Shown: piece after piece, positions 1,908 to 36,311 of the stretch
How positions within the stretch are numbered: the stretch's first letter is position 1
How the letters are laid out: every line of letters begins with the position of its first letter
Origin: Streptomyces sp. P9-A4
GTDB taxonomy: Bacteria > Actinomycetota > Actinomycetes > Streptomycetales > Streptomycetaceae
Reading direction: 5' to 3'
DNA length: 64,000 bases
NCBI RefSeq assembly: GCF_036634195.1
Contig: NZ_JAZIFY010000001.1
Coordinates: 6,582,501 to 6,646,500 of the forward strand
Notes under the pieces: generated by a model
What the model was told of the DNA's origin: nothing
Seen by the model: only the letters and a program-made list of their open reading frames with translations
The model's database searches: none
Made by a program: the position numbers and the translations under genes

Positions 1908-1950
1908 CTGGGGGTCAAGGGGTCGCAGGTTCAAATCTTGTCGACCCGAC
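1908..1950 (+). repeat. Attachment-site-like repeat: 3' half of tRNA-Pro (left copy)
   Basis: The 43 bases read from the anticodon region through the T-arm (GGTTCAAATC) to the acceptor 3' strand of a tRNA-Pro(GGG). They differ at two positions from the copy at 8412-8454. The 5' half of the tRNA is absent, so this is not a functional tRNA. Integrating elements of the pSAM2 type use the 3' end of tRNA-Pro as attB, and an integrase remnant abuts this copy, so I read it as an att site. The intact tRNA should lie left of the window. Confidence 0.7.
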
Positions 1951-8411: not shown

Positions 8412-8454
8412 CTGGGGGTCAAGGGGTCGCAGGTTCAAATCCTGTCGTCCCGAC
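8412..8454 (+). repeat. Attachment-site-like repeat: 3' half of tRNA-Pro (right copy)
   Basis: This copy runs from the anticodon loop region to the acceptor end and keeps perfect T-arm and acceptor sequence (GGTTCAAATCCTG, then TCGTCCCGAC). It differs from the left copy at two bases. The preceding bases do not form the D-arm or 5' acceptor strand, so no functional tRNA is encoded here. It marks the right border of the island; the RiPP operon starts 283 bases further on. Confidence 0.7.
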
Positions 8455-8533: not shown

Positions 8534-8736
8534 ACCGGCGCACGTGACCGGGGCGAAGGGCACCTCGACTCGGTCAAGGTGCGCTGGTCGCCGCACGGCT
8601 CGCTCGTCAAGGCCAGGACCTCAGGGTGATGCGGCACCGGCCCGGATCACGTCGTGGAGGCGGGTGCCGTGGGCCTGCCCATGTCCGCGGACCGTGTCCT
8701 GTGAGGTGAGGGCCTCGTGGGTCCGGCGTCGGGCGG

Positions 8737-9489
8737 TCAGTACGGGAAGTCGCGGCGGGACTGGTACTGCTTGCCCCCGAGCAGCTCGACCACGAGGTCG
8801 GACGGGTCGGTGAGAGCGGCCAGTTGTGAGCGCATGTCCTCCTGGGGCACGCAGAAGGTGTGCGTGTAGGTGATGAGCAGGGCGGACCTCAGCTCCGTGG
8901 AGCGGTTGGGGCGGGACGTGTGCCACCAGGCGCCGTCGGCGAGGATCACGCTCCCGCGGGGACCGGCGAGGATCTCGCCCTCGTCGCACCACGACTCCCC
9001 CATGTCCGGCAGCCGGTTCGCCCGGTGCGAACCGGGAATGCCGGCGGTGGCGCCGTTCTCCACGGTGAAGTCGTCAAGGAACCAGATGCATTGCCCGGCG
9101 AGCGGGATGGCGGGCCACGGCGGGGTCAGCGTCCAGTAGGGGTGGTCGGCGTGCCAGTACTGCTCGACGGCGCCGGGCCAGAGCGTGTTCGCGCTGAACG
9201 TCGAGCAGATCAGGTCCTCGCCGAGATAGCGCCGCCACACGGCGAGGACGAAGGGGTGGACCAGGGCGTCGAGGAACACGGGATCCTTCGCCGGCAGATG
9301 CAGGACCCGCTGGTGTCCGCTGGGGTGCAGATTGCGCTGCTTCTCCGCGTGCAGCAGCCGTTCGAGGGACTCCCGCATCCGGTCGATGGCCGGTTCGGGC
9401 AGCAGGTTCTCCACCAGCAGGTAACCGCGCTCGCCGATGGCGCGGACCGCCGAGTCGGCCTGCGGCAGGTCGAGTTCTGTCGTCGTCAT
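8737..9489 (-). CDS. PhyH-family Fe(II)/2-oxoglutarate dioxygenase
   Basis: A 250-aa member of the phytanoyl-CoA dioxygenase family. The iron ligands are visible as His113 and Asp115 in YWHADHPYW and His190 in AWWHTSRPN. An Arg near residue 201 can bind 2-oxoglutarate. Such enzymes hydroxylate small molecules or peptide side chains. It is the last gene of the RiPP operon, starting 19 bases after the TfuA-YcaO stop with a GGAG eight bases from its ATG. The natural reading is a tailoring hydroxylase for the precursor peptide. The family is clear; the substrate is inferred from context. Confidence 0.85.
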   Translation of the reverse strand: MTTTELDLPQADSAVRAIGERGYLLVENLLPEPAIDRMRESLERLLHAEKQRNLHPSGHQRVLHLPAKDPVFLDALVHPFVLAVWRRYLGEDLICSTFSANTLWPGAVEQYWHADHPYWTLTPPWPAIPLAGQCIWFLDDFTVENGATAGIPGSHRANRLPDMGESWCDEGEILAGPRGSVILADGAWWHTSRPNRSTELRSALLITYTHTFCVPQEDMRSQLAALTDPSDLVVELLGGKQYQSRRDFPY

Positions 9490-9508
9490 GGCGTTCTCCG
9501 GTCGGAAT

Positions 9509-12109
9509 TCAGGACCAGCGGGGCAGCAGGTCGCGCAGGAGCGTCAGCCGGGCGCGCTCTCCGGTCGCAAACGGATTGTTGCTCTCCAGACCGGGGACGA
9601 TCACCCGCACGACGTGGCCGGGCGCGGTCTCCGGGCGGGAGAGGTCGAGCACGGGAACGTGGGAGACACCGGCGTCGGCGACCCGCCGCAGGGTCCACCG
9701 CAGGTCGTCGAGCACGTCGTCACCCGTGAGCCCTCGGGGGAGCGGGGCCGCGATGATGTCCGGGTCGAGCCAGAACCAGGCGTCCTCGTGCGCGATGGGA
9801 CGCGGCCGTTCGTGCCGACCGAGGCTGCGGGCCCTGATCGTGAGGTCCTCGCGACCTCCCGCCACCGAGCAGGCGATCGACTGGGCGGCCTCCAGCAGGG
9901 CCATTTCGACCGCCGTCCCGGGATCAGGATGGGTGCCGTAGCCCTCGGCACGGTCCAGGCCGCGCCACACCGTCACCATGAACGTGGGGACCTTGACCTC
10001 AGACGTGATGTCGAGGACCCGGACCACGTGCCCGGCCCGGCGCAGCCGGTCCGCAGCCTCGCGCGCCCGGTCCGGAGCGGTGTCGGGGTCCACGAACCGG
10101 AACGGCGGCGCCCCCGTCCCACCGGGGTTCACCAGGGCGACCTCCGCGAGGCGCTGGGCATGGCGCTCCAGGTACTCGCACAGCCCGTGCAGCAACGCCT
10201 CCTCGAGGGAGAATCCCGACCCCAGACCATTGGTCGCGATGACCTTCCGTGCCCCGCGCGGACTGAAGCAGATATCGCCCCGGCCGCGTTCGAGCCGCAG
10301 CAGGTCGAGCGGGACGAGGACCGTCCGCGCGGTGAGGAGGTCCGGGCAGCGCACCCAGGTCAGCGGCAGCTCGGGGGTGTAACCGCTGTCGTACGGCAAG
10401 GCCAGTCCCGCCGGGTCGACGGCTTCGGCGCCCAGCTCGCGGTAGCTGGCCTCGACGAGGTCGTCGGCGCGCGGCACCCAGCGTTCCTGCGCCCACTTCT
10501 CCAACTCCTCCATGACGCTGCCGACGTACGCACCGTCCTCGGTGAGCCCCTTGCCGCTTCCGTACGTGCTCGACCAGCGGCCGTCGGGCCGGGCGGCCTG
10601 CGCGATCTGAACGCCGCCGATGTCCCCGAGCTCGCCGACCATCCCGATCCGGGTGATCCCGATGGCCTTCGCCAGCCTCTCCGCGTGGTCGCGCGCCTGC
10701 CTCAGAGAGGTGCAGAAGCGTCGCTCCCCCGGAGGCTTCGGCCGACTGCGCAGCCCCAGGGCAGGGTGCGGTACGGGGCGGGCCCCGGCGGGCAGGGCCC
10801 CGCCGGCCATCGTCGCGGCCAGTGTCCGGACGTTGCGCCGAGCCCGCGCGAGCCCTTCGGCGAAGGCGTCCTGAGCGGCGCGGTCGCCGTGACCCCACTG
10901 TGCCCACCGCTGCCGCAGGGCCTCCCGGTCGACGGCCAGGTTCGCCTTGCAGAGCACCTGCCACGCCTCGGCGAGTTCCTCGGTTCCCGCCGGGCGGGGA
11001 TCCCGCTCGGCGAACAGGCGCAGCGCACCGCACCGCATCACCTCCCGCTTGAGCGAGGCGTCGTGCAGGAACAGCGCGGCGCGCACCGATCGCCGGAACA
11101 CCTCGCGATCGACCCTGGCCCACGCCGTAAGCCCGGCATCGGCCACGGCCTCCGCCTCGGCACGGCGGTTGAGGGTCGACAGGTCGATGCCGAGGTCCGC
11201 GAGCGTGACCCGGGCCTCCTCCGTGCTCAGCCACCCCCAGCGGCGCACGGCGGACCGGAACGTGGCCCGAGCGGCCTCGGCGTCGACCGCCGGCAGCAGC
11301 TCGGGCGGTACGGGATGGGCGGCACGGCCCAGCGGTTCGAGCCGACCCGTGTACGTGAGGAAGGCGAACAGTTCGTCGTCGTCGACCCGGTCGCCGCTCT
11401 CCCAGATCAGAGCCGTACCGGTGGCGACGGGCTCGGCGACCGGGCGGCCCACGTTCACTTGGGGCCGCTCACCGGGCACGGGCGCCACACGGGCCGCCCC
11501 CACCGCCTCCAGGACCGACTGGGCATCCCGGTGCTTGAGGTCGTGCCCCGCCAGCATGGCGACGAGGTCATCGCCGTCGGCGCGATCGAGCAGCCCGGCG
11601 GAGCGGACGATGCGGCGGTGGGTGCGCGCCTTGTACGGCAGCTTCAGCGCGGCCGCGAGCAGACGGTCGGCGGTGGGTCGGTCGATGGTGCCGCCCCGGT
11701 GCAGGCGGTCGATCGCGTAGCGGACGTTCACCATGGGCACGGTCAGAGGAGCGGCGGTCGCCGCGTCGAACAGCAGCGCGACCTCGTCGTCCCGGCTGAC
11801 GACGCCGTCGCGGTACCAGGCATGGACCAGCCCGATGCCGATGACACCGGGAACCTCGGCCGCGCGCAACGCGCCCATGCTGCCACCGCCGTACACGACG
11901 ACTCCCCGGTCGACGGCCAGGCGCACCTCTGCCGGGCTGACGGCGAGGGACTGCTCGAAGACGCCGTCGACGATCCCGACGACCTGCCCGGCAGGGAACG
12001 CGTCGAGGTCGCCGCGCCGGACCGGCCGACGGTAGTCGGCGTCGAGGAGCAGACGGGCCTCGGCGAGAGGCATCGACGGCCCCAGGAACACGACCGGCTG
12101 TGTGCTCAC
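9509..12109 (-). CDS. TfuA-YcaO fusion protein
   Basis: This 866-aa protein fuses a TfuA-like domain at the N terminus (VVFLGPSMPLAEARLLL, then GGSMGALRAAEVPGVIG) to a C-terminal YcaO cyclodehydratase domain (about residues 420-866). The YcaO part has the ATP-binding helix SLEEALLHGLCEYLERHA and a second motif EMALLEAAQS. YcaO enzymes activate a peptide backbone amide with ATP. With TfuA as partner they typically install thioamides, while with other partners they make azolines. The start is a GTG overlapping the stop of the JmjC gene (GTGA), so translation is coupled. There is no separate RRE domain; the radical SAM protein may bring the leader. The backbone change, thioamide or thiazoline, cannot be decided here. 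Confidence 0.85.
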   Translation of the reverse strand: MSTQPVVFLGPSMPLAEARLLLDADYRRPVRRGDLDAFPAGQVVGIVDGVFEQSLAVSPAEVRLAVDRGVVVYGGGSMGALRAAEVPGVIGIGLVHAWYRDGVVSRDDEVALLFDAATAAPLTVPMVNVRYAIDRLHRGGTIDRPTADRLLAAALKLPYKARTHRRIVRSAGLLDRADGDDLVAMLAGHDLKHRDAQSVLEAVGAARVAPVPGERPQVNVGRPVAEPVATGTALIWESGDRVDDDELFAFLTYTGRLEPLGRAAHPVPPELLPAVDAEAARATFRSAVRRWGWLSTEEARVTLADLGIDLSTLNRRAEAEAVADAGLTAWARVDREVFRRSVRAALFLHDASLKREVMRCGALRLFAERDPRPAGTEELAEAWQVLCKANLAVDREALRQRWAQWGHGDRAAQDAFAEGLARARRNVRTLAATMAGGALPAGARPVPHPALGLRSRPKPPGERRFCTSLRQARDHAERLAKAIGITRIGMVGELGDIGGVQIAQAARPDGRWSSTYGSGKGLTEDGAYVGSVMEELEKWAQERWVPRADDLVEASYRELGAEAVDPAGLALPYDSGYTPELPLTWVRCPDLLTARTVLVPLDLLRLERGRGDICFSPRGARKVIATNGLGSGFSLEEALLHGLCEYLERHAQRLAEVALVNPGGTGAPPFRFVDPDTAPDRAREAADRLRRAGHVVRVLDITSEVKVPTFMVTVWRGLDRAEGYGTHPDPGTAVEMALLEAAQSIACSVAGGREDLTIRARSLGRHERPRPIAHEDAWFWLDPDIIAAPLPRGLTGDDVLDDLRWTLRRVADAGVSHVPVLDLSRPETAPGHVVRVIVPGLESNNPFATGERARLTLLRDLLPRWS

Positions 12110-13293
12110 CGTACGAGCCCATCGATCTCGCCCGGCCGCGAGCGGCGCAGCAGCCCCTCGGACACGAGCTTCCGGACGACATCGACCGCGGCGCGCGGGG
12201 CGAGGGCGCCGGGCAGGTCGACGGCACGCAGCACGCGTGCCCCGGCCACGTGCTCGAACGCTGCCAGCACACCGATCGGGCCGCGGACCGCGCCGCCCGG
12301 GAAATGGATCGTCGCGGAGACGTCGTCCGCGCTCACGCGGCAGTCCGTGCCCCGTGCGCGCACCAGCCACGTCTTCTCGTCGATCCCCTCCAGGCCGCCG
12401 CGCTCGCCGAGCCCGCCGTCCGCAAGGACCGCCCGCCGGGCGGCGCGCCGGGCGGACAGTCCGCCGAGCATGCCCGGCAGCGCCGTACGGATGCCCGGGG
12501 AGCCGAGCAGGTCGGCCAGCCCGGCGGCGAGCGCGTCGGCATCGGCCGTACGGGCATGCGGGACCGGCCCGTCCAGACCGGGCAGGCCCGCCACGACCTC
12601 GTCGAGGACGTCCCGCCAGCGCAGCGGGAAGAGCCTGATCGTCAGGTGCAGGGACGATGCGGTCCCGGTCCGGGCCGCGTGCCCGCGGTACTCGGGCACG
12701 TACAGCACGTCCCCCGGCTCCAGCGCGAACTCCCGCTGCGGGATCCGTGCCCACTCCCGCGCCGGGACCCCGCACGGCTGCTGCGGGCCGTTGCCCTCCT
12801 CCACCCGCCAGATCTTGTGCCCGTCGAGCTGCACGACCAGGCTCCCGTGGTCGTCGCGGTGCGGCGCGAACCCCTGCGCCGCGGCCGGTGTGGCGAACAC
12901 GTGGGCACCGGCCGGCGCCCGGAGGGCGACGCCATGCTCGGCCAGGTCGAGTTCGATGCCGCGGCACAGGTCGGCCAGAGCCGGCGAGAGCCGGTGCGCC
13001 TTGGTCAGGTAGAGCGTCTCGCCGTCCTCGAACAACCGCCGGACCTGTCGCAGGTCGAGCATGCCGTCCGCGTCGACGAGCGTCGGCGGCAAGGGTCGTC
13101 GGTCTCCGCCGCGGGCCAGGTGCAGCACGCCCTCGTGCGCGTGGTGCAGGGCACCGAGCATGGCCTCGAAGCCGTCCATGTCGAGCGGCGGGGCACTTGA
13201 GGCGACGCCGGGGAACAGACGCGGCTCCCGACTCCGTACCGAGTCGACGAAGGCCGCCGCGTCCGTCGGGCGGAGCAGTTCGGCGAGCGTCAC
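12106..13293 (-). CDS. JmjC/cupin-4 (ribosomal-oxygenase-like) dioxygenase
   Basis: A 395-aa protein with a JmjC-type double-stranded beta helix (about 95-230) like the cupin-4 family of ribosomal oxygenases. Iron ligands are visible: His145 and Asp147 in GFAPHRDDHG, and His205 in EYRGHAART. These are followed by the conserved SLHLTI strand and a helical, winged-helix-like C-terminal part. Relatives hydroxylate Arg or His side chains of proteins using 2-oxoglutarate. Its GTG overlaps the radical SAM stop, and a GGAGG lies within the end of that gene. Position in the RiPP operon suggests that the precursor peptide is its substrate. Confidence 0.85.
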   Translation of the reverse strand: MTLAELLRPTDAAAFVDSVRSREPRLFPGVASSAPPLDMDGFEAMLGALHHAHEGVLHLARGGDRRPLPPTLVDADGMLDLRQVRRLFEDGETLYLTKAHRLSPALADLCRGIELDLAEHGVALRAPAGAHVFATPAAAQGFAPHRDDHGSLVVQLDGHKIWRVEEGNGPQQPCGVPAREWARIPQREFALEPGDVLYVPEYRGHAARTGTASSLHLTIRLFPLRWRDVLDEVVAGLPGLDGPVPHARTADADALAAGLADLLGSPGIRTALPGMLGGLSARRAARRAVLADGGLGERGGLEGIDEKTWLVRARGTDCRVSADDVSATIHFPGGAVRGPIGVLAAFEHVAGARVLRAVDLPGALAPRAAVDVVRKLVSEGLLRRSRPGEIDGLVR

Positions 13294-14846
13294 GCGTCCT
13301 CCCGCCCCGGCTCGGAACCGGCCGGCGGCGCGGGGTGGGGGATCGGTCGGTAGCGCTGGACGAGGAAGCGCCGCCTGCGCAGCTTCTCCTCGGGCGTGCA
13401 GGTGGTCACCAGTCTGCTGCCGGTGTGCTTCTCGTCCTCCACACGGCAGGTCCCGCCGCACAGGTTGCGCAGGTCGCAGGAGCGGCAGCCCTCCCGGTTG
13501 TCGACCCCGAAGGCCGCGGCCGTGCGCCCGAGGTATGTCGTGATCTCGCCGAGCGGCAGCTGGTCGACGTGGCCGAGCGCACCGGACATCAGGTGGCAGG
13601 GGTACACGAGCCCGTCGGGGGCGACCACGAGCTGCTCGGCGTATCCGCAACCGCTGATCTTCTGGACCATGTTGGACCCGTGGACCTTGTCGTCCTCCTC
13701 GCGCAGCTCGCCGAGCAGCGCGTCGACCCACGCCCGCACCTCGTCGGTGTCCAGGTCGTGGTCGAGGTCCGTGCCCCGGCCGTGCGCCATGGCGCCGTAA
13801 CTGATCCGGAACCGCAGGTCCGTGTCGCGCCACTGCTCGGTGAAGCCCGGGAGTCCCGCTTTCACAGCCGCCCAGTTGGCGGCCATGACGGTCGTGCTGA
13901 CCCGCGTCTGCACTCCGGCGTCGAGCAGGAGACGGATGGCGCGCACGGCCCGGCGGAAGGAGTGCGGGCCGCGGATCGCGTCGTGGGACTCGGCGGTGGG
14001 CCCGTCCACGCTGATCTGCACGATGTCGGCGTAGCGCACGATGTCGCCGAGGTGCTTGGGCACGGCCATGCCGTTGGAGAACAGCGTGACCTCGAGCCCG
14101 AGTTCGTGGCTTCGCCGCATCACCGGGATGCAGCCCTCGTGCAGCAGCGCCTCGCCGCCGGTGAGGAGCAGCTTCTCCCCGCCGTTCGCCGCGAAGTCCT
14201 CCACCAGCCTGATCCAGCGTTCGGTGGTCAGTTCGCCGTCCTTGGGCAGCAACGGGCCTGAGCCGGTGTAACAGTGCACGCACTCGAGCTGGCAGCGGTT
14301 GGTCAGATGGAAGCGGGCGAACACGTGCGGCCGTACCTGCTTGACCGAGTGGTGGCCGCGGATCCCGCGCACCATCCCGGCGTGTGCGACCCGCGCGACG
14401 AGCTTGGCCATCGCCCGCGTCGCCGCGTCCGGGTCGAGCCCGTGGGACCGGTGCAGCTCGCGGGCGGCGTCGACGGGCGTCGTGCCGGCGACGAGGAGAG
14501 TGAGCAGCGCGTGGTCGACGTCGTCGGCGACCAGCAGCTTGCCGTCCTCCACGGCGATCCAGAGGTGGGCGCCGTCGACCTGGTGATGGGCGAGCGAGGA
14601 GACGAACGGGACCGGCTCCTTCGTGGGCAGGTCGTAGACCGCGCGGGAGCCGTCGGCGGACCGGCGGGCGGGGTACCGGGCGGGGGTGGCGACGGTGGGC
14701 GACGGGTGGTCCGTCAGACCGACGGCGCCGTACGGAGCCCGGTCCGGCGCGCCGAACCGCGGGAACGGCTGTGCGTCGTCGGGTCCGGAGAGTGCCGGTC
14801 CCCCCTGCCAGGCGCGAAGGGTCACCAGGGTCTGCTTGCTGCTCAT
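13290..14846 (-). CDS. Radical SAM-SPASM peptide maturase with PqqD-like domain
   Basis: This 518-aa protein has a PqqD/RRE-like region (about 80-160) that could bind a leader peptide. A radical SAM core follows with the CX3CX2C cluster Cys185, Cys189 and Cys192 in NRCQLECVHCY. A SPASM domain closes the protein, with Cys motifs GCGYAEQ, PCHLM and CRSCDLRNLCGGTC binding auxiliary iron-sulphur clusters. Such enzymes cross-link or epimerise residues in RiPP precursors, for example through thioether bonds from Cys to a backbone or side-chain carbon. The ATG has GAGGAG ten bases upstream. The Cys-rich end of the nearby precursor is a fitting substrate. The bond type is not predictable. Confidence 0.85.
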   Translation of the reverse strand: MSSKQTLVTLRAWQGGPALSGPDDAQPFPRFGAPDRAPYGAVGLTDHPSPTVATPARYPARRSADGSRAVYDLPTKEPVPFVSSLAHHQVDGAHLWIAVEDGKLLVADDVDHALLTLLVAGTTPVDAARELHRSHGLDPDAATRAMAKLVARVAHAGMVRGIRGHHSVKQVRPHVFARFHLTNRCQLECVHCYTGSGPLLPKDGELTTERWIRLVEDFAANGGEKLLLTGGEALLHEGCIPVMRRSHELGLEVTLFSNGMAVPKHLGDIVRYADIVQISVDGPTAESHDAIRGPHSFRRAVRAIRLLLDAGVQTRVSTTVMAANWAAVKAGLPGFTEQWRDTDLRFRISYGAMAHGRGTDLDHDLDTDEVRAWVDALLGELREEDDKVHGSNMVQKISGCGYAEQLVVAPDGLVYPCHLMSGALGHVDQLPLGEITTYLGRTAAAFGVDNREGCRSCDLRNLCGGTCRVEDEKHTGSRLVTTCTPEEKLRRRRFLVQRYRPIPHPAPPAGSEPGREDA

Positions 14847-14915
14847 CGTGGCTCCTCGGGGGCCGGATGGGGAGGGAACGGAGAACGGGGGGCGGCCGGA
14901 GCGGTGACCTCGGGA

Positions 14916-16706
14916 TCACCGCAGCCGGGGGCCCGCGACCCAGGCCACCAGAGCGCGACGCAGCCCCTTGGTGACCGGCGTGACGCGGTGGTCGATCAGG
15001 GACGGGAAGACCAGCACCGAGCCGCGTTCGCGCGGCAGTTCCTCGGTGTCGACGCCGAACATCTGCAATCCCCCGCCCTCGTACGAGGACGCATCGGACA
15101 GCTGGACGATGACGGTGATCTTCCGGGGGGAGTCGGCCTGGTCGTGGCTGTAGTCGTTGTGCCGGTGGAAGTGCCCGTTGCCGGGGAGGTACTCGACGTA
15201 CTGCGGAGCGCGCGTGATGCCTGACAGATCGAACCCGTAGACGGTCCGCGCGGCCTCCCGCGCCACGGAATCGACCAGTCGGTAGATCCACTCGGTGCGT
15301 GGCCCCTTCGGTACGTGCCGGGTCTCCGCTCGCCGATGGCCGGGATGCCCGGCCTCGTCCACGGTGGTCGGTGCCGTCAGCGGGAGATCGCGGCAGGCTG
15401 CGACGAGGTCGTCGCAGTCGGCGGCGGTGAGGCGTTCCCGCAGGCGCATCCAGCCCAGGTGATGGCCGGCCGAAGGGCCGCCGTCACGGACCAGGGTCGG
15501 GTTGCGGGTCCGTAGGACAGGATCTTCCGCTCGGGTGGGGGCGGCCGAGGCCGTGGCCGGGCCTCCCGCAGGGGCCGCGGTCAGCACGGGCGATGCCGGT
15601 CCGGCGGTGCTGTCGACCGGCCGGAAGAGGTTGTGCCGCACGAGGATCCGGGTCAGCTCGACGGCGTCGTAGTGCTGACCGACCCGCGGCAGCTCGCTCG
15701 GAGTGAAGGACTCCGCCTTCGACACGTGGTCGACGACGGGCTGGAGCCGCCCGTCGAGGCGCAGGGTGCCGCCGGGGAAGGTCAGTCGCGCGAGCCCGCG
15801 GTCGCTGTCGGATTCGCTGGGCATCAGCGGCACTCTGCGCACGACGGTGTCCGGCGCGATCGCGGTGGCGGCGCTGCCCGCCACCAGCTGCCCACCGGGC
15901 AGCGGATCGAGTCCGGCGACGCACCGTACGCGGCGTTCCCGCAGATAGGCGGGGACGTCGAGGTCCGGGAGGTCGGGCAGCGCGGGTCCGAGGACCGTGG
16001 GTCCGGTGACCGAGCGGCGGAACGGCTCGTGGTCGCGCAGCATGTCCGCCATGGCGTCCGCCCAGGACAGCGTGTGCAGACCGAGCGTGAGGTGCAGCGA
16101 GGCCTCGTCGGTCGTGTGTGCGACGTGGGGGAAGTCCTGGGGGACATACAGGACGTCGCCCGGCTCCAGCGTCGCGGAGACGAGCGTTCCCGAGCGCTGC
16201 GACCCGGGCGCGAAGACCTCCCACCTCTTGGTGCCGTGCAGTTGGACGACGAGCACCGAATGGTCGTCGTGGTGGCGATCGAAGCCCTGTGCGCGCGGCG
16301 GAGTGAGGTACGCGTTGGCACTCACGGGCTCGGCGGGGAGCACGCCCAGCTCCAGCAGGTCGAACTCGATGCCGCGGCACAGCTCGCCGACCGGGGTGCA
16401 GCGGCGGGCCAGGAGGGAGAGCAGCAGCGTGGCGCCGGAGCGGTAGGCGGTCAGGACGTCCCGCCCCGGGGACCGGTCGGAGTGGTGGGGGACGACCGGC
16501 CGTGCCCGGCCTTCCTGTACGACGCTGAGATCGGCGCCTCCGCCGCAGGCCAGCCGTTCGAAGTCCTCGATCGTGAACAGCCGCCCGACCAGCGGAGCGG
16601 CGGCCCCGCGGAGCAGCAGCGCTTCGCGCTCCCAGCTCGTGCGGAGGAAGGAGGTGACGTCCGGGCTGCCGAGGACGGTGGCCAGCCCTCGCTTCTCCGT
16701 GTCCAT
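14916..16706 (-). CDS. JmjC/cupin-4 plus prolyl-4-hydroxylase-like dioxygenase fusion
   Basis: Two iron/2-oxoglutarate oxygenases are joined in one 596-aa chain. The N-terminal JmjC domain has His145 and Asp147 in GFDRHHDDHS and His194 in DFPHVAHTT. The C-terminal domain (about 405-596) is of the PKHD/P4H type: HxD near 517-519 in GHFHRHNDYSHD, a distal His near 574 in LIDHRVTPV, and a 2-oxoglutarate-binding Arg soon after. A Pro/Ala-rich linker separates them. It is the second gene of the RiPP operon, 25 bases after the precursor. Both active sites look complete, so two separate hydroxylations are possible. The fusion of these two folds is unusual to me. Confidence 0.85.
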   Translation of the reverse strand: MDTEKRGLATVLGSPDVTSFLRTSWEREALLLRGAAAPLVGRLFTIEDFERLACGGGADLSVVQEGRARPVVPHHSDRSPGRDVLTAYRSGATLLLSLLARRCTPVGELCRGIEFDLLELGVLPAEPVSANAYLTPPRAQGFDRHHDDHSVLVVQLHGTKRWEVFAPGSQRSGTLVSATLEPGDVLYVPQDFPHVAHTTDEASLHLTLGLHTLSWADAMADMLRDHEPFRRSVTGPTVLGPALPDLPDLDVPAYLRERRVRCVAGLDPLPGGQLVAGSAATAIAPDTVVRRVPLMPSESDSDRGLARLTFPGGTLRLDGRLQPVVDHVSKAESFTPSELPRVGQHYDAVELTRILVRHNLFRPVDSTAGPASPVLTAAPAGGPATASAAPTRAEDPVLRTRNPTLVRDGGPSAGHHLGWMRLRERLTAADCDDLVAACRDLPLTAPTTVDEAGHPGHRRAETRHVPKGPRTEWIYRLVDSVAREAARTVYGFDLSGITRAPQYVEYLPGNGHFHRHNDYSHDQADSPRKITVIVQLSDASSYEGGGLQMFGVDTEELPRERGSVLVFPSLIDHRVTPVTKGLRRALVAWVAGPRLR

Positions 16707-16731
16707 GGGAATCAGTCCCGAGCGGCGTCGC

Positions 16732-17043
16732 TCAGCAACTCGGCCCGCCGACGTTGGACGCGCATCCCGTGCAGGCCGTGATCATGCCGAAGCTCTGGTT
16801 GTCCAGCTCGATGTCGACGGTCTGGAGGGAGATGGACATGACCTCCTCGGGCTCCGCCGCCGTCTCGTCGCCGGCGTCGCCCTCGTCGGCCGCGTCGGAG
16901 GTGTCGGCCTGCCCGGTGCGGCGGCGGAGCTCGATGGCGACCCGGTCGCCGTCGTTCAGCTCCACTCGCGGCGTGTCGGCTCCTTCGAACACCTCCACCA
17001 CGATTTCTTTGCGTGGCTGCGTCATGTCGGTGTTCTCACACAT
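16732..17043 (-). CDS. RiPP precursor peptide, Cys/Thr/Ser-rich core
   Basis: A 103-aa peptide with no enzyme domain, first in an operon of peptide-modifying enzymes. The leader starts with a predicted beta hairpin (EIVVEVFEGADTPRVELND), continues through a highly acidic stretch with DEGDAGDETAAEPEE, then SISLQTVDIELDNQ. The C terminus FGMITACTGCASNVGGPSC has three Cys plus Thr and Ser residues, substrates expected for YcaO and radical SAM enzymes. The start is the ATG with AGGAG seven bases upstream; the upstream in-frame ATG has no such site. The cleavage site is not certain; the core probably begins near NQSFG. No transporter or peptidase gene is adjacent, so export and leader removal must use genes elsewhere. 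Confidence 0.8.
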   Translation of the reverse strand: MCENTDMTQPRKEIVVEVFEGADTPRVELNDGDRVAIELRRRTGQADTSDAADEGDAGDETAAEPEEVMSISLQTVDIELDNQSFGMITACTGCASNVGGPSC

Positions 17044-17055
17044 GGTGTACTCCTG

Positions 17056-17071
17056 ACTTGTCACGTCAAGT
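17056..17071. promoter_or_regulatory. Palindrome ACTTG-N6-CAAGT in precursor leader, possible operator
   Basis: A 5-bp inverted repeat (ACTTG and CAAGT, 6-base spacer) lies just upstream of the precursor ribosome-binding site and downstream of its predicted transcription start. It could be a repressor site or part of an RNA element. No regulator gene is adjacent. Confidence 0.35.
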
Positions 17072-17103
17072 TGTGACGAAGGGGACTATGTTGAGGGAAA
17101 GCC

Positions 17104-17132
17104 TTCCTAGCAGTGACCTGAAGCACAGTCAA
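17104..17132 (-). promoter_or_regulatory. Promoter of the RiPP operon (TTGACT-17-TAGGAA)
   Basis: On the minus strand a -35 hexamer TTGACT is separated by exactly 17 bases from a -10 hexamer TAGGAA. This is close to the vegetative sigma consensus of Streptomyces. Transcription would start near 17097 and give a leader of about 55 bases before the precursor ATG. Confidence 0.6.
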
Positions 17133-17156
17133 CGAAATGGAGGTCCAGGCGAGGGT

Positions 17157-17969
17157 GTGACACCCGAACGGCACTTTCCGCTGGACCTCGCCATCGGATG
17201 CACCTTCCGGAACGAAGCCAGATTCCTGAGGGAATGGATCGAGTTCCACCGGCTGATGGGCGTGCAGCGCTTCTTCCTCGTCGACGACCGCAGCGAGGAC
17301 GACTACCGGGACGTGGTGAAGCCCTACGTCGACGAAGGCGTCGTCCAGGTCATTGAGAAGCCCTGCCCGCCGGCGTACGCGGGGCGCCGGTGGAACCAGT
17401 ACCAGCACGTGGTCCTGGGCGGGCTGTGCAGGGAACTCCGCGGAGCCGTGCGCTGGCTGGCCCTCGTCGACGTCGACGAGTTCCTCGTACCGACCGTCGC
17501 CCCCACCGTCATCGAGTTCCTCTCGGACCACGAGGAGGCGGGAGCGGTGCACGTGGAATGGCGCATGTTCGGAACATCGGGCGTGCGGCGGCTGGGTACC
17601 GGGGAACTGCTCACCGAGCGCATGTGCCGCCGCATGGCGGCACGCCCGAATCCGGGGAAGTCGATCGTCAAACCGCACCGAGTCGCCGAGGCGGGTATTC
17701 ACCGCTGCGAGCTCCTGCCCGGCAGCGCCTACGTCACCGTTCCGGCCGACCCGGCACCCGGGCGTGGCGGCATGCGCGTCCACCACTACTGGACCCGGGA
17801 CGAGGAGTTCCTCCTCGGCACCAAGCTTCCCCGCGCGGCGGAAACGAAGGGCTGGGAGCTGACATCGGAAGCCGTCGACTTCCATCGCACGGCGTACGAC
17901 GACGTCGAGGACCGGCAGATCCGGCGGTTCCTGCCGGGCCTGCGGGAGCGGCTGGGGCGAGCTCGGTAG
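17157..17969 (+). CDS. Glycosyltransferase family 92/DUF23-like protein
   Basis: A 270-aa protein of the GT92 (DUF23) type with a GT-A fold. It starts with GCTFRNEARFLREWIEFH and continues with FFLVDDRSEDD and a metal-binding motif LVDVDEFLVP. Late in the chain come the family-typical HRVAEAG and MRVHHYWTRDEEF. Such enzymes transfer sugars to glycans, often in surface polysaccharide synthesis. The GTG at 17157 is preferred. The 69 bases upstream are also open from an ATG at 17088, but their third positions are A/T-rich and that stretch carries the divergent promoter. The gene could glycosylate the RiPP or be an unrelated neighbour. Confidence 0.75.
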   Translation: MTPERHFPLDLAIGCTFRNEARFLREWIEFHRLMGVQRFFLVDDRSEDDYRDVVKPYVDEGVVQVIEKPCPPAYAGRRWNQYQHVVLGGLCRELRGAVRWLALVDVDEFLVPTVAPTVIEFLSDHEEAGAVHVEWRMFGTSGVRRLGTGELLTERMCRRMAARPNPGKSIVKPHRVAEAGIHRCELLPGSAYVTVPADPAPGRGGMRVHHYWTRDEEFLLGTKLPRAAETKGWELTSEAVDFHRTAYDDVEDRQIRRFLPGLRERLGRAR

Positions 17970-18004
17970 GACTCGCCGCCTGCCGTAGCCGGACCGCACC
18001 CGAG

Positions 18005-18180
18005 GTGGTGGACGCCCGGCCGACGGTCACCGCCGCCGCGACCACCCTGGCGACCGGCTCTCTCGTCTGGGCCCCGACCGCCTTCGCCGACGCGCCCGAG
18101 ATCCCCCCGGGCGCCATCGAGATCACCAAGAAGGCCCCGGACGCGCTGCGCGAGCAGCGGATGGCCCCCCGGGGACGGCC
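18005..18180 (+). pseudogene. Remnant of a secreted protein N terminus
   Basis: A short stretch with good coding bias reads like a signal peptide and mature start (TAAATTLATGSLVWAPTAFA, then DAPEIPPGAIEITKKAP). There is no proper start codon context, and the frame loses bias after about 60 codons. It is most simply debris of a secreted protein gene between two gene clusters. Confidence 0.3.
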
Positions 18181-18209: not shown

Positions 18210-19292
18210 TCAGGTCGTCCTGCTTCCCTCCGCCGGGCGGACCGACGACGGCACGTGCGCCCGCAGCGGGTCCGCCGGATAGAACTGGCGGGCCCAGTGC
18301 CGGAACGGGCCGATCGGACCGTCGCCCCTGGCCAGCCGGGGCGGGGACTGGTAGCGCTTGGTCGCCCACACCGGGAAGTCCTGGGCGACGAACTCGCAGT
18401 TCCCCTGGAACATCACCCCGGCCAGAAGGCGCGCCGCCGAGCGGCTCAGCCAGCGTGCCACCGGCGCCGGAAGCGCGCCCGGCTCGGCGATGTCGAGCCA
18501 ACTCGCCTGCCGGAGCTGGAACACGGCAGGCTTGATCATCGTGGCCGCGTACATGGCACAGGTGCGCACTCCGAACCTCGGGAGGGCGGTGCACACGTGG
18601 ACGCGGCTGATGCCGCAGCCCTCCAGCGTCACCTCCAGAGGGCTCTCGCCCAGCAGCGGCACCCGCTCGTGGGAGCGGACCGACACCCGGAAGCTCCGTC
18701 CCTCGAACGTGGCGGGTTCGGCGACCTCGGACTCGCCCCAGCCGTGCAGGGGGGTGAAATGCCCGGTGTCCACCGCGTTCTCGACCACGTCCTGGCTGTG
18801 GCCCGCCATCTCCCAGGTGGCGAGACGGGGGGCCCGCGCGCCGAGGGTGTGCCAGGCCGGGAGTTCCCAGTCCGGTGACCGCCCGTCATGGTGCCGCCAG
18901 ACGAAGACGGCGTCGTTGACCTCGCACACCGGCAGCAGCGTCAGGTCGGACGACGGCGGCGGTGGCGTGCCGTACCCCGTACGCAGGCAGGAGCCGTCGG
19001 GGCCGAAGGCGAAGCGGTGGAAGGGGCAGAGCAGGTCGTCCCCCTCCACCGAGCCGAGTCCGAGGTGGGCCCCCAGGTGCGGACAGTACGGGCGGACCGC
19101 CCGCACACCGCCGTCTCGGAGCCGGTAGAGCACCACGTCCTCGCCCTGGAGCGGCCGGGTCAGCACGGTGCCCGGCACCAGTTCCGAGGAGAAGGCCACC
19201 GCGAACCAGCCGTCGGGGTACGGCAGGCTCGGCGCGTGTGCGTCGGCCGGGCTCGGGCCCTCGGTGAAGGACCGGGTGTACCCGCGGTTCAC
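18210..19292 (-). CDS. Rieske non-heme iron oxygenase in the PTM cluster
   Basis: This 360-aa protein has an N-terminal Rieske [2Fe-2S] domain with Cys70/His72 in YCPHLGAHLG and Cys89/His92 in LCPFHRFAF. The C-terminal domain binds mononuclear iron through ENAVDTGHFTPLH (His178, His183). It resembles KshA-type hydroxylases acting on polycyclic substrates. Its GTG overlaps the stop of the MDR reductase gene, so it is translated as the last gene of the PTM operon. Published PTM clusters that I know end in a cytochrome P450 at this position. A Rieske enzyme may replace it and oxidise the tetramate macrolactam. It needs a ferredoxin reductase encoded elsewhere. Confidence 0.85.
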   Translation of the reverse strand: MNRGYTRSFTEGPSPADAHAPSLPYPDGWFAVAFSSELVPGTVLTRPLQGEDVVLYRLRDGGVRAVRPYCPHLGAHLGLGSVEGDDLLCPFHRFAFGPDGSCLRTGYGTPPPPSSDLTLLPVCEVNDAVFVWRHHDGRSPDWELPAWHTLGARAPRLATWEMAGHSQDVVENAVDTGHFTPLHGWGESEVAEPATFEGRSFRVSVRSHERVPLLGESPLEVTLEGCGISRVHVCTALPRFGVRTCAMYAATMIKPAVFQLRQASWLDIAEPGALPAPVARWLSRSAARLLAGVMFQGNCEFVAQDFPVWATKRYQSPPRLARGDGPIGPFRHWARQFYPADPLRAHVPSSVRPAEGSRTT

Positions 19293-20344
19293 AGCTCGAC
19301 CAGCACCTTGCCGAAGGACCCGGCCCGGTCGGTGTACAGGCTGCGGTAGGCGGCGGGGATACTGTCGAAGCCCCGGTGCACGGTCTGCTGGTACCGGACC
19401 TCCCCGCCGCGGACCAGCGGGCCGAGGTCGGCGTGCAGGGCGGCCCAGTTCTCGTCGGTGAACCACTCCAGCGCGAAGATTCCCCGGATCGTGGTGCGGG
19501 GGAACATGATGTACGGCAGCAGGCGCGGACCGGACCATTCGCCGCCGACCTGGCTGGCCCACTGCCAGCAGACCGCGACCTGGCTGTCCACATTGAGCAT
19601 GGGGAACACGGTGTCGGTGATGACCCCGCCGAGGTTGTCGAAGTACTTGTCGACCCCGCCGGGGGCCGCCTTGGCGAAGTCCTCCCGCAGTTGGGCGGCG
19701 TCCCCGCCGTGCCGGAAGTCGACCACCGCGTCGAAGCCGAGTGCGGTCAGCCGGGCCGCCTTCTCCGGCGAACCGGTGGTGCCGACCACCCGCGCCCCGG
19801 CCCGCTTGGCCAACTGGCCGATCAGCGTGCCGATCGCGCCGGAGGCGCCGCTGATCACCAGCGTGTCGTCGGGCCGGATGGTCATGAACCTGTTGAGGGT
19901 GCCCCAGGCGGTCATGCCCGCACCGCCCAGGACACCGAGCGCGGTGCTCAGCGGCAGCGCGTCGTCGTAGTGGGCCGGGTCCAGCCGGCGGTAGCCGGGG
20001 AAGACCATCGGGAAGGTCCCGGTCTGCCACAGCGCGGGGGCACCGTTGCTGACCAGGTGCGTGCGCCAGCCACCGAAGCCCTGGACCAGGTCACCGACGG
20101 CGAACCTGGCGCGCGGCCCGGCAGCCAGCACCTCCATGATCGAGTCGGCGCCCATGTGGTCGCCGACCGGAGTGTCCAGGGCGATCCCCTGGAGGTACGG
20201 GTCGACGGAGACGTACCGGGTGCGCAGGAGCATCTCGTCCTCGGCCAGCTCGGTGTCGAGGTCCTCCACCACCTTCACGTACATCCGGTCCACGTCCGGG
20301 ACACCGTCGTTGTGCTCGCTGACGATCCACTTCTCGGTCTTCAA
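19289..20344 (-). CDS. ftdE: Zinc-independent MDR oxidoreductase (PTM ring-forming reductase)
   Basis: A 351-aa medium-chain dehydrogenase/reductase of the leukotriene/prostaglandin-reductase type. The nucleotide-binding loop is SGASGAIGTLIGQLAKRAGA, and the catalytic zinc ligands of classical alcohol dehydrogenases are absent. In PTM pathways the homologue reductively closes the inner six-membered ring. The start is a TTG preceded by GGAG at seven bases and overlapping the upstream stop (TTGA). The gene lies between the flavoprotein and the Rieske gene, in the position of FtdE in frontalamide-type clusters. The assignment rests on family plus synteny. Confidence 0.8.
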   Translation of the reverse strand: MKTEKWIVSEHNDGVPDVDRMYVKVVEDLDTELAEDEMLLRTRYVSVDPYLQGIALDTPVGDHMGADSIMEVLAAGPRARFAVGDLVQGFGGWRTHLVSNGAPALWQTGTFPMVFPGYRRLDPAHYDDALPLSTALGVLGGAGMTAWGTLNRFMTIRPDDTLVISGASGAIGTLIGQLAKRAGARVVGTTGSPEKAARLTALGFDAVVDFRHGGDAAQLREDFAKAAPGGVDKYFDNLGGVITDTVFPMLNVDSQVAVCWQWASQVGGEWSGPRLLPYIMFPRTTIRGIFALEWFTDENWAALHADLGPLVRGGEVRYQQTVHRGFDSIPAAYRSLYTDRAGSFGKVLVEL

Positions 20345-21999
20345 GGGGTTGCTCCTGCCGGGTCGATGAGTTGGACGGGAAGGGGGGCGCTGTGGTCGAC
20401 GGTGGCGGTGAACGGCCGGCCGTCGTCGCGGCAGACGAACTGCATGACGTGCCGTCCGGACGCGGCGGCCCTGATCAGGCCGCCGGTGGTGGCCCAGACA
20501 CCGGAGAGGTAGAAGTCGGCGAGCCCGGGCAGACCCGGCCCGTGGCGCTTGACCTCCTGCTCCACGGTCTCGCCGCTCGTCACGAAGGGCTGCCAGCCGA
20601 GCACCGTGCCGTCGTAGTTGCCGGTGTAGCGGACCTGGGTGAGGGGGGTCGAGACGTCCCTCACCGCGATCGCGTCCCGCAGGCCCGGGTGGCGCTCTTC
20701 GAGGAAGTCCGTGATCGCGTCCCGCACCTGCCGCTTGGCCCGCTGGTACGCGCGCCCACGGCCGACCGGCAGGGTGTGCAGCTCCTCGCCCCGGCGCAGC
20801 CGCGTGGCCTGCTCCGGGCCGGTGCTCAGCTCCCGCCAGGGCGAGATGTCGCAGAAGTACGTGGCGTACACGACCGAGGTGCCTGGGGGCGACAGCTCGG
20901 GGTAGTGGCGGCTGCGGAACTGGACGTTGATGCTGGGGTGGCGGATCCCGGTGAGCCGGGCCGCGAAGGCCTCGTCCAGCAGGTGTGTGGTGCAGGGCTC
21001 GCCTTCCGGGAAGGCGCGGCGCAGCCCGAGGAAGACGGTGAAGTAGCCGGGGAAGACCATGTCCGGCTCGGTGATGGTCCTGGTGTAGAGCTCGCGGTAC
21101 GTGTCGGTGAGATACCGGCCCTTGAGCAGCTCCATGAGGGTGGTGCGGCCGTCGCAGGCGGAGACCACGATATCGGCCCTGAGCTCGGTCCCGTCGCTGA
21201 GCCGGACGCCGGCCGCCCGGTCCTCCTCGACCAGGATCTCCACCACCTTGGCGTTGTACGTGACCTCTCCGCCGAGCCCCCGGTAGCGCTGCTCGACCGA
21301 ACGGGCCAGGCCGAGCGAACCGCCCTCGGGCACGCCGGCGGACTGGCCGGCGTGCGCGGCGAGCTGGAAATAGAACGGCAGGACCGGGAAGTTGGGGTGC
21401 TTCTCGTACAGAATGAAGTTGAACGCCTCGCGCAGCAGAGGGTCCTGGAACCGCTGGGAGTAGTCCCGCATCAGGACGGTGATGGAGCGTCGGATCACGT
21501 TGAAGTACGGGATGAGGGAGGCCAGCATCCGCCACCGTTCCCGTCGGCCCATCAGCCCGACGGGGGTGAGGAAGGGATAACGGGCCAGAGCGCGCCGGAA
21601 GGTGCGCAGCCCGGCGCAGAAGTCCCGGATCGGGCGGGCGTCGGCGGGTGAGAGGGTGAGCAGATGGGCTTCCAGGCGGTCCGGATCGGAGTAGAAGTGG
21701 ACCGCCCGGCCGTCCCGGCCGCGCACGGTGTTGAAGACGTCGAAGTTGCGCATCCGCTTGCCCTGGAGGGCGCCGAGCTCCAGCCAGATCTGGTGCATCT
21801 CGTTGCCGGGGCCGCTGCCGAGCAGCCAGCTGACGCAGCAGTCCAGGGTGAAGTCGCCCCGGTCCCAGGCGGTGCAGGAACCACCGGGGATCTCGTGCAT
21901 CTCCAGCACCCTGCTGCGGTATCCGTTCATCTGGGCGTAGCAGCCGGTGGACAGGCCGCCGAGACCCCCGCCGACGATCAGCATGGTCCTTCTGGTCAT
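20341..21999 (-). CDS. ftdD: Phytoene-dehydrogenase-like FAD oxidoreductase (PTM, second copy)
   Basis: A 552-aa flavoprotein with an N-terminal dinucleotide-binding motif MLIVGGGLGGLSTGCYAQMN and a C-terminal FAD-binding segment ending SGVWATTGGLIRAAASGRHV, as in CrtI and retinol-saturase relatives. PTM clusters carry two such proteins, which form the five-membered carbocycles from the polyene chains of the tetramate precursor. Its ATG overlaps the stop of the preceding flavoprotein gene (ATGA). The two copies share the same layout (GGSLGLARSVE in both) and probably arose by duplication. The letter assignment C/D is by gene order only. Confidence 0.8.
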   Translation of the reverse strand: MTRRTMLIVGGGLGGLSTGCYAQMNGYRSRVLEMHEIPGGSCTAWDRGDFTLDCCVSWLLGSGPGNEMHQIWLELGALQGKRMRNFDVFNTVRGRDGRAVHFYSDPDRLEAHLLTLSPADARPIRDFCAGLRTFRRALARYPFLTPVGLMGRRERWRMLASLIPYFNVIRRSITVLMRDYSQRFQDPLLREAFNFILYEKHPNFPVLPFYFQLAAHAGQSAGVPEGGSLGLARSVEQRYRGLGGEVTYNAKVVEILVEEDRAAGVRLSDGTELRADIVVSACDGRTTLMELLKGRYLTDTYRELYTRTITEPDMVFPGYFTVFLGLRRAFPEGEPCTTHLLDEAFAARLTGIRHPSINVQFRSRHYPELSPPGTSVVYATYFCDISPWRELSTGPEQATRLRRGEELHTLPVGRGRAYQRAKRQVRDAITDFLEERHPGLRDAIAVRDVSTPLTQVRYTGNYDGTVLGWQPFVTSGETVEQEVKRHGPGLPGLADFYLSGVWATTGGLIRAAASGRHVMQFVCRDDGRPFTATVDHSAPLPVQLIDPAGATP

Positions 22000-35874: not shown

Positions 35875-36311
35875 GCCCCGTCGCAGACGAGCGCGACCGT
35901 ATCCGTGCCGCGATGGACCGCATCCTGAGCGGCACACCCGAACGCTCCAACGGCGCCCTGACGATCGTCGGCCTCGCCGTCGAAGCCGGTGTCCCGTGCA
36001 ATGCACTCACCCAGCGGCACACCGACCTGAAGAACGAGTTCTACGACAAGGCCGGCGCCTGCGGCGGCACCCCGGACAGTGAGCAGCGCCTGCGCAAGCA
36101 GGTCCGCCGGCTCAAGGAGCGGCGGGCTGCCGACGCGGAGGAGATCGCCCGCGTCAAGGCCGACGTCGAAGCTCTCGTGGGCGCGCTGCACCAAGCAACA
36201 GTCGAGAACCAACTCCTACATCAGCAGCTGGCAGACCGTACGGCCGTGCTCCGGCCGCTGTCCTCTCAGCATCAACCACAGAAACGAACAGACCCTCTCG
36301 GTCACTCGTAG
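35871..36311 (+). CDS. tnpC: TnpC-like coiled-coil transposition helper (DUF6262-like)
   Basis: A 146-aa protein with an N-terminal small helical domain (ADERDRIRAAMDRILSG, then LTIVGLAVEAGVPCNAL) and a long coiled coil (RLRKQVRRLKERRAADAEE and following). This matches TnpC, the third gene of Tn554-like elements, which aids orientation of insertion. The start codon overlaps the tnpB remnant stop. The end overlaps the convergent IPT gene by ten bases. It looks intact, but its partners are broken, so the element should be immobile. Confidence 0.65.
   Translation: MSPVADERDRIRAAMDRILSGTPERSNGALTIVGLAVEAGVPCNALTQRHTDLKNEFYDKAGACGGTPDSEQRLRKQVRRLKERRAADAEEIARVKADVEALVGALHQATVENQLLHQQLADRTAVLRPLSSQHQPQKRTDPLGHS

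Follow-up and report, generated by a model that had tools for sequence, protein, structure and literature searches.

The window analysed here, 64,000 nucleotides of Streptomyces sp. P9-A4 (contig NZ_JAZIFY010000001.1, positions 6,582,501 to 6,646,500), contains an 8.3-kb cassette on the minus strand, read from 17043 to 8737, in which the open reading frame (ORF) of a short precursor peptide and five maturation genes share a single orientation. A first-pass annotation, drawn up from the sequence, had regarded this cassette as a candidate new class of ribosomally synthesized and post-translationally modified peptide (RiPP). Its features are given below in reading order (SAM, S-adenosylmethionine; 2OG, 2-oxoglutarate; RRE, RiPP recognition element; aa, amino acids).

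17050..17054, minus strand: AGGAG, a ribosome-binding-like motif 6 bases 5' of the precursor ATG (from the sequence itself)
16732..17043, minus strand: precursor peptide gene, 103 aa, leader plus C-terminal core (homolog profile; first gene in all five near-complete relatives)
16801..16839, minus strand: conserved leader segment MSISLQTVDIELD, a possible RRE-binding strand (11-row alignment)
16735..16800, minus strand: core block N82-C103, NQSFGMITACTGCASNVGGPSC (column counts over the 120 listed homologs)
14916..16706, minus strand: fusion oxygenase, 596 aa, with a JmjC_2 (ROX-type) domain, here JmjC1, and a 2OG-FeII_Oxy_3 (P4H-like) domain (Pfam)
13290..14846, minus strand: radical SAM/SPASM maturase, 518 aa, with an N-terminal RRE-type fold (Pfam; AlphaFold2; Foldseek)
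12106..13293, minus strand: second JmjC_2 (ROX-type) oxygenase, JmjC2, 395 aa (Pfam; sequence match to solved structures)
9509..12109, minus strand: fused TfuA-YcaO protein, 866 aa (stop-free translation; Pfam)
8737..9489, minus strand: PhyH-type Fe(II)/2OG oxygenase, 250 aa (Pfam)

In cassette order the junctions measure 25, 69, -4, -4 and 19 bases, the two 4-base overlaps falling at the radical SAM/JmjC2 and JmjC2/TfuA-YcaO boundaries, which bears out the initial placement of five maturation genes with close or overlapping junctions. The single promoter ascribed to them was not recovered: a sigma-70 consensus scan for a cassette promoter returned 0 sites (shuffle mean 0.1). Domain-library scans of the cassette's own proteins found no LanB/LanC, transporter or peptidase domains, as had been claimed. 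The gene set, its order and operon-like spacing, the conservation of catalytic residues, a precursor family with a fixed core, an RRE-type fold in a structure model and the linkage of these genes in other genomes are direct observations, documented in what follows.

The fused TfuA-YcaO protein scored 225.2 bits against Pfam YcaO (cut-off 25.7) and 117.5 bits against TfuA (30), and the two parts make up one open frame in the window and likewise one frame in all five near-complete relatives. Its closest solved structures by sequence were TfuA 6xp8 and the YcaO protein MJ1094 (6pe3). The four Fe(II)/2OG domains were recognised as JmjC_2 (72.3 and 65.3 bits; cut-off 22), 2OG-FeII_Oxy_3 (53.9; 27) and PhyH (85.3; 22), and their Fe/2OG ligands were kept in all rows of small alignments (6 for PhyH, 7 for JmjC2, 4 for JmjC1 and 5 for the P4H-like domain). 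The HxD...H iron ligands and the PF08007 domain expected of ROX-type JmjC enzymes were found, and both JmjC domains are closest by sequence, among solved structures, to NO66/MINA53. MINA53 and NO66 are ribosomal-protein hydroxylases, and RoxA is an enzyme of the JmjC/ROX kind. A structure model of JmjC2 reached a mean predicted local distance difference test (pLDDT) score of 55.5, too poor to judge a C-terminal winged helix. As far as these comparisons carry, the encoding of TfuA-YcaO as a single protein and the proximity of the JmjC enzymes to MINA53/NO66 go beyond the first-pass annotation.

The maturase scored 78.3 bits against Pfam Radical_SAM (cut-off 29.5) and 19.7 bits against SPASM, slightly under the cut-off of 21.5. 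In an alignment of 69 rows, window included, the CxxxCxxC cysteines C185/C189/C192 were invariant, as were the SPASM-type cysteines C400, C417, C454, C457, C463, C467 and C483; because the latter are invariant in 69/69 rows, the SPASM domain is taken as real. Pfam scores together with ligand and cysteine conservation thus uphold the enzyme set first proposed, namely TfuA-YcaO, a radical SAM-SPASM protein and four Fe/2OG domains (two JmjC, one P4H-like, one PhyH). The AlphaFold2 model of the maturase (mean pLDDT 86.4) placed residues 85-155 in a beta3-alpha3 block with pLDDT 95-98 (strands 85-90, 93-98 and 103-107; helices 109-119, 124-135 and 139-155). This N-terminal piece had no Pfam match; its modelled fold is that expected of an RRE, and the maturase would accordingly carry one at its N terminus. 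In a Foldseek ranking by E-value the first four proteins were SkfB, CteB (entry 5wgg/5why, which we take to be CteB), SuiB and TigE, all RiPP maturases. In a FastTree tree of the 69 rows the neighbours of the window were Streptomyces, Yinghuangia, S. cattleya and Actinomadura, while the Rhodobacteraceae relative introduced below (L005) grouped with Rhizobium and Labrenzia; the tree, which came with long-branch warnings, serves as a picture only.

Of 8 candidates retrieved with the window ORF as query, 7 were homologs at E<=1, and an 11-row profile, including three ORFs found beside radical SAM relatives, recovered 129 proteins at E<=1, of which the 120 listed were used for column counts. Over the 120 listed homologs the C-terminal 22 residues follow the consensus NQS[F/Y]GM[I/V]xASTGC[I/A/V]SNPGGP[S/G]C. 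All 120 listed homologs have TGCxS near the C terminus, followed by G100-P101, and keep Q83, T92, G93, C94, S96, G100 and P101. Nearly as constant are F/Y85 and S/G102 (119 each), G86 (118), N82, S84, A90 and N97 (117 each), G99 (115) and M87 (108), and the C-terminal Cys is present in 119/119 uncut homologs, the remaining one being cut short. Column 91 is Ser in 109/120 and Cys, the window's residue, in 5/120, while column 98 is Pro in 101/120 and Val, again the window's residue, in 11/120. Of the three cysteines in the precursor end first described as Cys/Thr/Ser-rich, two are invariant and C91 is unconserved. Judged on these columns, near-invariance is the more telling trait of the core than richness in Cys, Thr or Ser. 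The proteins measure 69-146 aa, with variable leaders in which I71 and L73 are invariant and S70 and S72 nearly so (11 rows).

Named precursor homologs come from Streptomyces, Yinghuangia, Streptantibioticus, Actinomadura, Labrenzia, Rhizobium ruizarguesonis and a Dormibacteraceae metagenome-assembled genome (MAG); by these matches the family is large and spread across phyla, which the first-pass annotation had not foreseen. Among six relatives, window included, synonymous changes outnumber non-synonymous ones within the 22 core codons in 13/15 pairs, the exceptions being A. terrae/window (4 synonymous vs 6 non-synonymous) and A. terrae/S. wedmorensis (5 vs 6). In the 15 codons 5' of the core, compared ungapped, so that the Rhodobacteraceae row is shifted by an indel, non-synonymous changes prevail in all pairs but two (window/S. 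wedmorensis, 1 to 0 the opposite way; A. terrae/S. cattleya, 3 to 3). By these codon patterns the precursor ORF behaves as coding. A short precursor with a variable leader, a conserved C-terminal core and adjoining maturation enzymes is the RiPP hallmark, and it is present here.

Five near-complete relatives of the cassette were compared: Streptomyces wedmorensis (L002; radical SAM identity to the window 97%), Actinomadura terrae (L003; 80%), a Corynebacteriales-labelled MAG (L004; 67%), a Rhodobacteraceae MAG (L005; 59%) and the Streptantibioticus cattleyicolor megaplasmid (L022, also S. cattleya; 83%). The gene order precursor, JmjC(-P4H), radical SAM, JmjC, TfuA-YcaO is identical in all five; in L005 JmjC and P4H are encoded as two genes. 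PhyH occurs in 4/5, as the final gene in L002, L003 and L022 and ahead of the radical SAM gene in L005; none was found in the L004 cassette. In L004 a 394-aa protein (15503-16687), with no match in Pfam or NCBIfam, lies at the place that PhyH has in L002, L003 and L022, its gene overlapping that of TfuA-YcaO by 4 bases. The DNA match to L002 covers 8705-18016 at 96%; those to L003 (8739-16876) and L022 (8736-17010) extend from the PhyH end to the precursor and thereby mark the cassette unit. The core is kept with few changes at all five loci, which were found with the radical SAM protein as bait. The first-pass annotation had named two ways in which its proposal could fail, homologous operons without a precursor-like ORF and a core that is not conserved. 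Both failed to materialise, as the precursor comes first in 5/5 near-complete relatives and the last 22 residues hardly vary over the 120 listed homologs.

Linkage was also seen in the wider homolog lists. Of the 48 listed precursor rows on contigs of at least 5 kb, 25 pair with a radical SAM row by a contig of exactly equal size, the chance level from jittered sizes being 0.11 on average; 84 radical SAM rows were used (P0121-P0205 less P0140), 20 more distant rows being left out. On contigs under 5 kb, 0/72 precursor rows paired with a radical SAM row. Taken together, sequence comparison marks the precursor, TfuA-YcaO, radical SAM/SPASM protein and four Fe/2OG domains as one evolutionarily kept unit.

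The cassette is sparsely distributed. Among 20 radical SAM loci, only L002-L005 were near relatives. Cassette proteins were compared with 13 of the 20 (L009, L012, L013, L015, L017, L019 and L020 fell outside), and nine of those 13 were dropped because their other cassette genes matched weakly or in a scattered way at most (L010 most); a core motif scan of all 20 found the motif in L002-L005 only. In a family-level sample the cassette occurred in 2/297 genomes of the window's family (the window itself; the other, with a match at the coordinates of the plasmid record, apparently S. cattleya), and in a class-level sample for L005 in 1/385 genomes, L005's own. The radical SAM profile at E<=1e-70 likewise found 1/398 genomes of L005's phylum (its own) and 1/396 of the window's phylum (the window). 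A precursor profile run on 5 genomes with weak radical SAM matches gave 0/5, no precursor relatives were found at E<=0.001 among 50,697 phage records, and among viral contigs 2 stretches fitted the pattern, neither of them confirmed. In plasmid records the precursor P0034 matched two S. cattleya records only, and the window radical SAM protein at 1e-20 gave 4 matches, two from S. cattleya, one from Mycetohabitans endofungorum (43%) and one from Treponema saccharophilum (28%). Named carrier strains are S. wedmorensis NRRL 3426, S. cattleya NRRL 8057 and A. terrae OS3-83; among the radical SAM homologs, MAGs of Pseudonocardiaceae and Kofleriaceae are named as well. Under a score gap lies a second, remoter radical SAM group (P0204, P0206-P0225; 41-47% identity), with Pseudomonas sessilinigenes, Hyphomicrobiales, Egibacteraceae and Mycetohabitans as named members; the Mycetohabitans precursor is the only one seen in it.

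That Mycetohabitans locus is a partial relative, lying amid insertion sequences on a conjugative plasmid of M. endofungorum (L023, 4060-9381). It encodes PhyH, a short 2OG-Fe(II) protein, a radical SAM protein, one JmjC_2 protein and a short precursor-like protein that ends SSDGCISNPGGPSC and lacks the NQS[F/Y]GM block, i.e. its core differs in the first half. YcaO is absent from this plasmid, the plasmid being the part of the genome in view. This single decayed locus fits a division of labour in which the first core half serves TfuA-YcaO and the second the radical SAM enzyme and oxygenases.

We conclude that the cassette is probably a maturation system for a thioamidated, radically cross-linked and hydroxylated RiPP with one near-invariant 22-residue C-terminal core, the chemistry being that of the enzyme families. 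The leader segment ISISL..LDVDL would bind to the N-terminal RRE-type domain of the radical SAM protein. Fused TfuA-YcaO would then make at least one backbone thioamide, most likely in the NQS[F/Y]GM[I/V] half, and in the TGCxSNPGGPxC half the radical SAM/SPASM enzyme would form cross-links, thioether or related, through C94 and C103. Conserved side chains, with N82, Q83, F/Y85, N97 and P101 as candidates, may be hydroxylated by the four Fe/2OG domains (both ROX-type JmjC domains, P4H-like and PhyH). Leader removal, followed by export, would fall to proteins encoded elsewhere. We infer these chemical steps, their sites and order, and any biological role from the genes. A core so nearly fixed, over such distance and in a patchy cassette, points to a fixed target. 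It speaks for a target, metal or partner that is itself conserved more than for an antibiotic shaped by an arms race.

Several points weigh against this proposal. The homologs were gathered through shared five-residue words, so diverged cores would escape and the list is biased to conserved ones; the radical SAM-baited loci are free of this bias, yet number five plus one partial locus. Among the long-contig precursor rows, 23/48 had no matching radical SAM row; these may lack the enzyme or may fall in other 90% clusters. Protease and exporter genes are not kept with the cassette, and the second Cys, C103, is C-terminal, leaving little room for a ring beyond it. In a second fold comparison viperins, BlsE and MoaA fell between SuiB and CteB/TigE, and because these score among the maturases the fold cannot by itself fix the reaction of the radical SAM enzyme. 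Nor is the kind of cross-link fixed, because this enzyme stays far under the sactisynthase cut-offs (StsB, 140 of 625 bits; SkfB, 84.9 of 300). JmjC and 2OG proteins can also act on substrates other than a precursor. RiPP classes are defined by modification, beyond the reach of sequence, and the class standing proposed here is read from genes.

Around this unit the accessory genes differ. Two features flank it in the window:

17157..17969, plus strand: divergent glycosyltransferase family 92 gene, accessory (Pfam)
8423..8454, plus strand: tRNA-Pro(GGG) 3' end, att-like, immediately outside the cassette (sequence match)

The family 92 glycosyltransferase is common to the window and S. wedmorensis and lies beyond the DNA match to L003/L022. 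A. terrae and S. cattleya each have a GNAT gene upstream of the precursor, the two being 71% identical; in A. terrae two adjoining ATP-binding cassette (ABC) exporter-type genes also lie upstream, on the same strand. L004 has a NodU-like carbamoyltransferase downstream of the cassette, and in L005 a radical SAM C-methyltransferase, 9 bases after TfuA-YcaO, passes the NCBI RiPP-maturation model TIGR03975 (291.5 vs 281.85 bits). These differences suggest one common core product that each lineage decorates in its own way. The cassette lies at a tRNA-Pro(GGG) locus: in S. wedmorensis the tRNA gene next to it is intact, and in the window only the 3' stretch at 8423-8454 is left. The 3' end of this tRNA recurs as four direct copies over about 68.7-68.8 kb (genome C1: 6522174, 6573809, 6584419, 6590923; in the window 1919-1950 and 8423-8454), two of them inside intact tRNA genes, which probably reflects elements that integrated in tandem at a hot spot for insertion into tRNA genes. 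The S. cattleya cassette resides on the 1.8-Mb plasmid pSCAT. The cassette is rare and patchily distributed, and has probably spread horizontally. Beside it, on the minus strand at 18210-33024, lie a 3118-aa polyketide synthase-nonribosomal peptide synthetase hybrid, two flavin adenine dinucleotide (FAD) oxidoreductases (Amino_oxidase), an MDR oxidoreductase and a Rieske (KshA-like) oxygenase, presumably a cluster of the polycyclic tetramate macrolactam kind. Farther along the minus strand are a 490-aa protein with six IPT/TIG repeats (36302-37774) and a neighbour resembling it by its first residues (38208-39002).

The cassette failed the defining tests of the RiPP classes tested. Among the scanned cassette proteins there were no LanB-like dehydratases or [4+2] cycloaddition enzyme (thiopeptides), no LanB/LanC, LanM or related synthetases (lanthipeptides) and no multinuclear non-heme iron-dependent oxidase (MNIO), arginase or TldD protease (biphenomycins). 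The radical SAM protein lies under both the StsB and SkfB cut-offs (sactipeptides) and under those of the cofactor-pathway models MftC (72.1 of 265 bits; mycofactocin) and PqqE (61.3 of 381.35; pyrroloquinoline quinone, PQQ). What is present is the mark of thioamidated RiPPs, TfuA with YcaO close to a precursor, here as the 866-aa fusion. The known kind would be the thioamidated RiPP; what appears new is the core, the combination of enzymes and the pairing of a TfuA-YcaO fusion with ROX-type oxygenases.

Comparison with published systems draws on the openly available portions of the papers cited. TfuA-YcaO RiPPs (thioviridamide-like compounds, thiovarsolins and thioamidated thiopeptides; PMC6511847, PMC8120280) are alike in having TfuA and YcaO near a short precursor; cupin and JmjC are unmentioned in the text of these two surveys. 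The nearest published architecture in these sources is the family of a 2021 survey with fused tfuA-ycaO and two radical SAM proteins, in Burkholderia thailandensis (PMC8120280), whose Figure 5 legend names phytanoyl-CoA dioxygenase; some of the loci described here may well be among those in the survey networks of PMC6511847/PMC8120280. No Burkholderia occurred among the named rows of the precursor or radical SAM searches, a minority of rows being named.

In the std RiPP of Streptomyces thermodiastaticus (PMC13174530) YcaO-TfuA thioamidates Asn, and hydroxylation, a highly conserved C-terminal core and a NodU-like carbamoyltransferase, the last found downstream in L004, are further likenesses. 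It differs in using MNIO instead of JmjC/2OG enzymes, in separate TfuA and YcaO and in its SNKEWQE core, and the term 'radical SAM' is absent from the text of that paper. Biphenomycins (PMC12707348, PMC12257519) share a JmjC hydroxylase, BipG, which hydroxylates ornithine (PMC12707348), and a radical SAM cross-linker; they differ in MNIO, arginase, a B12-radical SAM enzyme and TldD protease, and 'YcaO' is absent from the text of PMC12257519. JmjC PF08007 proteins with fused RRE domains, and bacterial homologs in RiPP-like contexts, have been described (PMC12710340). Sactipeptides of the StsB/GggB and SkfB type (PMC8172795) resemble the cassette in a SPASM radical SAM maturase and core cysteines, whereas no TfuA-YcaO or oxygenases are described for them in the portion available. 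The claim that the enzyme combination lies outside described classes held within the open-access literature searched: neither the enzyme set nor the core strings were found in it, most subscription journals lying outside that search.

Among other explanations, an ordinary RiPP of the sactipeptide or ranthipeptide kind, carrying thioamide and hydroxyls as tailoring and serving to kill competitors, is possible though doubtful. The StsB sactisynthase is the top NCBIfam model for the radical SAM protein and SkfB is within the first five, SkfB and CteB lead the fold matches by E-value, the core has two invariant cysteines, and A. terrae has its exporter-type pair and GNAT gene upstream. However, the scores fall far short of the family cut-offs, the core barely varies, and genes for immunity, a protease or an exporter are missing from the conserved unit.

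That the product is a metallophore, its thioamide and thiols binding metal as in methanobactin and a TonB/ABC system retrieving the complex, seems improbable. The predicted thioamide and two cysteines would suit it, and L005 has, directly upstream of the precursor, a TonB receptor, ABC ATPase, periplasmic binding protein and FecCD permease, the receptor's top NCBIfam model being a siderophore receptor (178.5 bits, short of its cut-off of 223.5). But a cobalamin riboswitch (L005, 2805-3019; 129.3 bits, gathering 31.5) stands before the ABC set, and the ABC proteins pass no NCBIfam cut-off, their best models being F420-0, corrinoid and B12. Because the riboswitch precedes it on the same strand, the ABC set is read as B12 uptake, and the metallophore lead from this importer was rejected; at other loci the Pfam scans behind this check took in only some neighbours. 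The L005 cassette near this riboswitch also includes the B12-binding radical SAM methyltransferase.

Less probable still, the enzymes would modify a cellular protein, with the short ORF as regulator or decoy. In E. coli uL16, YcaO thioamidates Met82 and RoxA hydroxylates the adjacent Arg81 (PMC13063428), and the MINA53/NO66 proximity of both JmjC domains agrees with such a role. This system resembles the cassette in pairing a hydroxylase with a thioamidating YcaO at neighbouring residues and differs in its ribosomal-protein substrate and, as far as the source describes it, in having no TfuA, precursor or radical SAM enzyme (PMC13063428). The short ORF, however, leads the row in 5/5 relatives with its C-terminal block fixed, and the radical SAM protein has an RRE-type fold, as in RiPP systems. 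A pearlin-like arrangement, in which the precursor is no RiPP core but a carrier on which a small molecule is built and then cut off, agrees with the invariant C-terminal Cys (119/119 complete listed rows) but is very unlikely, as the cassette has no LanB-like peptide-aminoacyl-tRNA ligase and conservation covers 22 residues.

Sequence evidence thus presents a real, coherent cassette of RiPP type, widely spread and with a strikingly fixed core, for which thioamidation, radical cross-linking and hydroxylation remain the probable maturation. It is conceivable, if rather unlikely, that the product is a nearly universal molecule derived from a peptide, resembling a cofactor, signal or metal ligand (PQQ and mycofactocin are comparable) more than an antibiotic; if so, both the RiPP class and its small-molecule function in bacteria would be new. 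The suggestion is based on the 22-residue core being near letter-identical in actinobacteria and proteobacteria and on the pairing of TfuA-YcaO with a SPASM radical enzyme and hydroxylases of the ribosomal-oxygenase type, a combination not found elsewhere in the literature searched; relatives of the precursor or radical SAM protein also occur in Dormibacteraceae and Kofleriaceae MAGs. If the enzymes act as their families do, one short peptide would receive as many as four enzymatic hydroxylations besides radical cross-links and a thioamide in its backbone. The similar cassettes in distantly related bacteria suggest a conserved small molecule.

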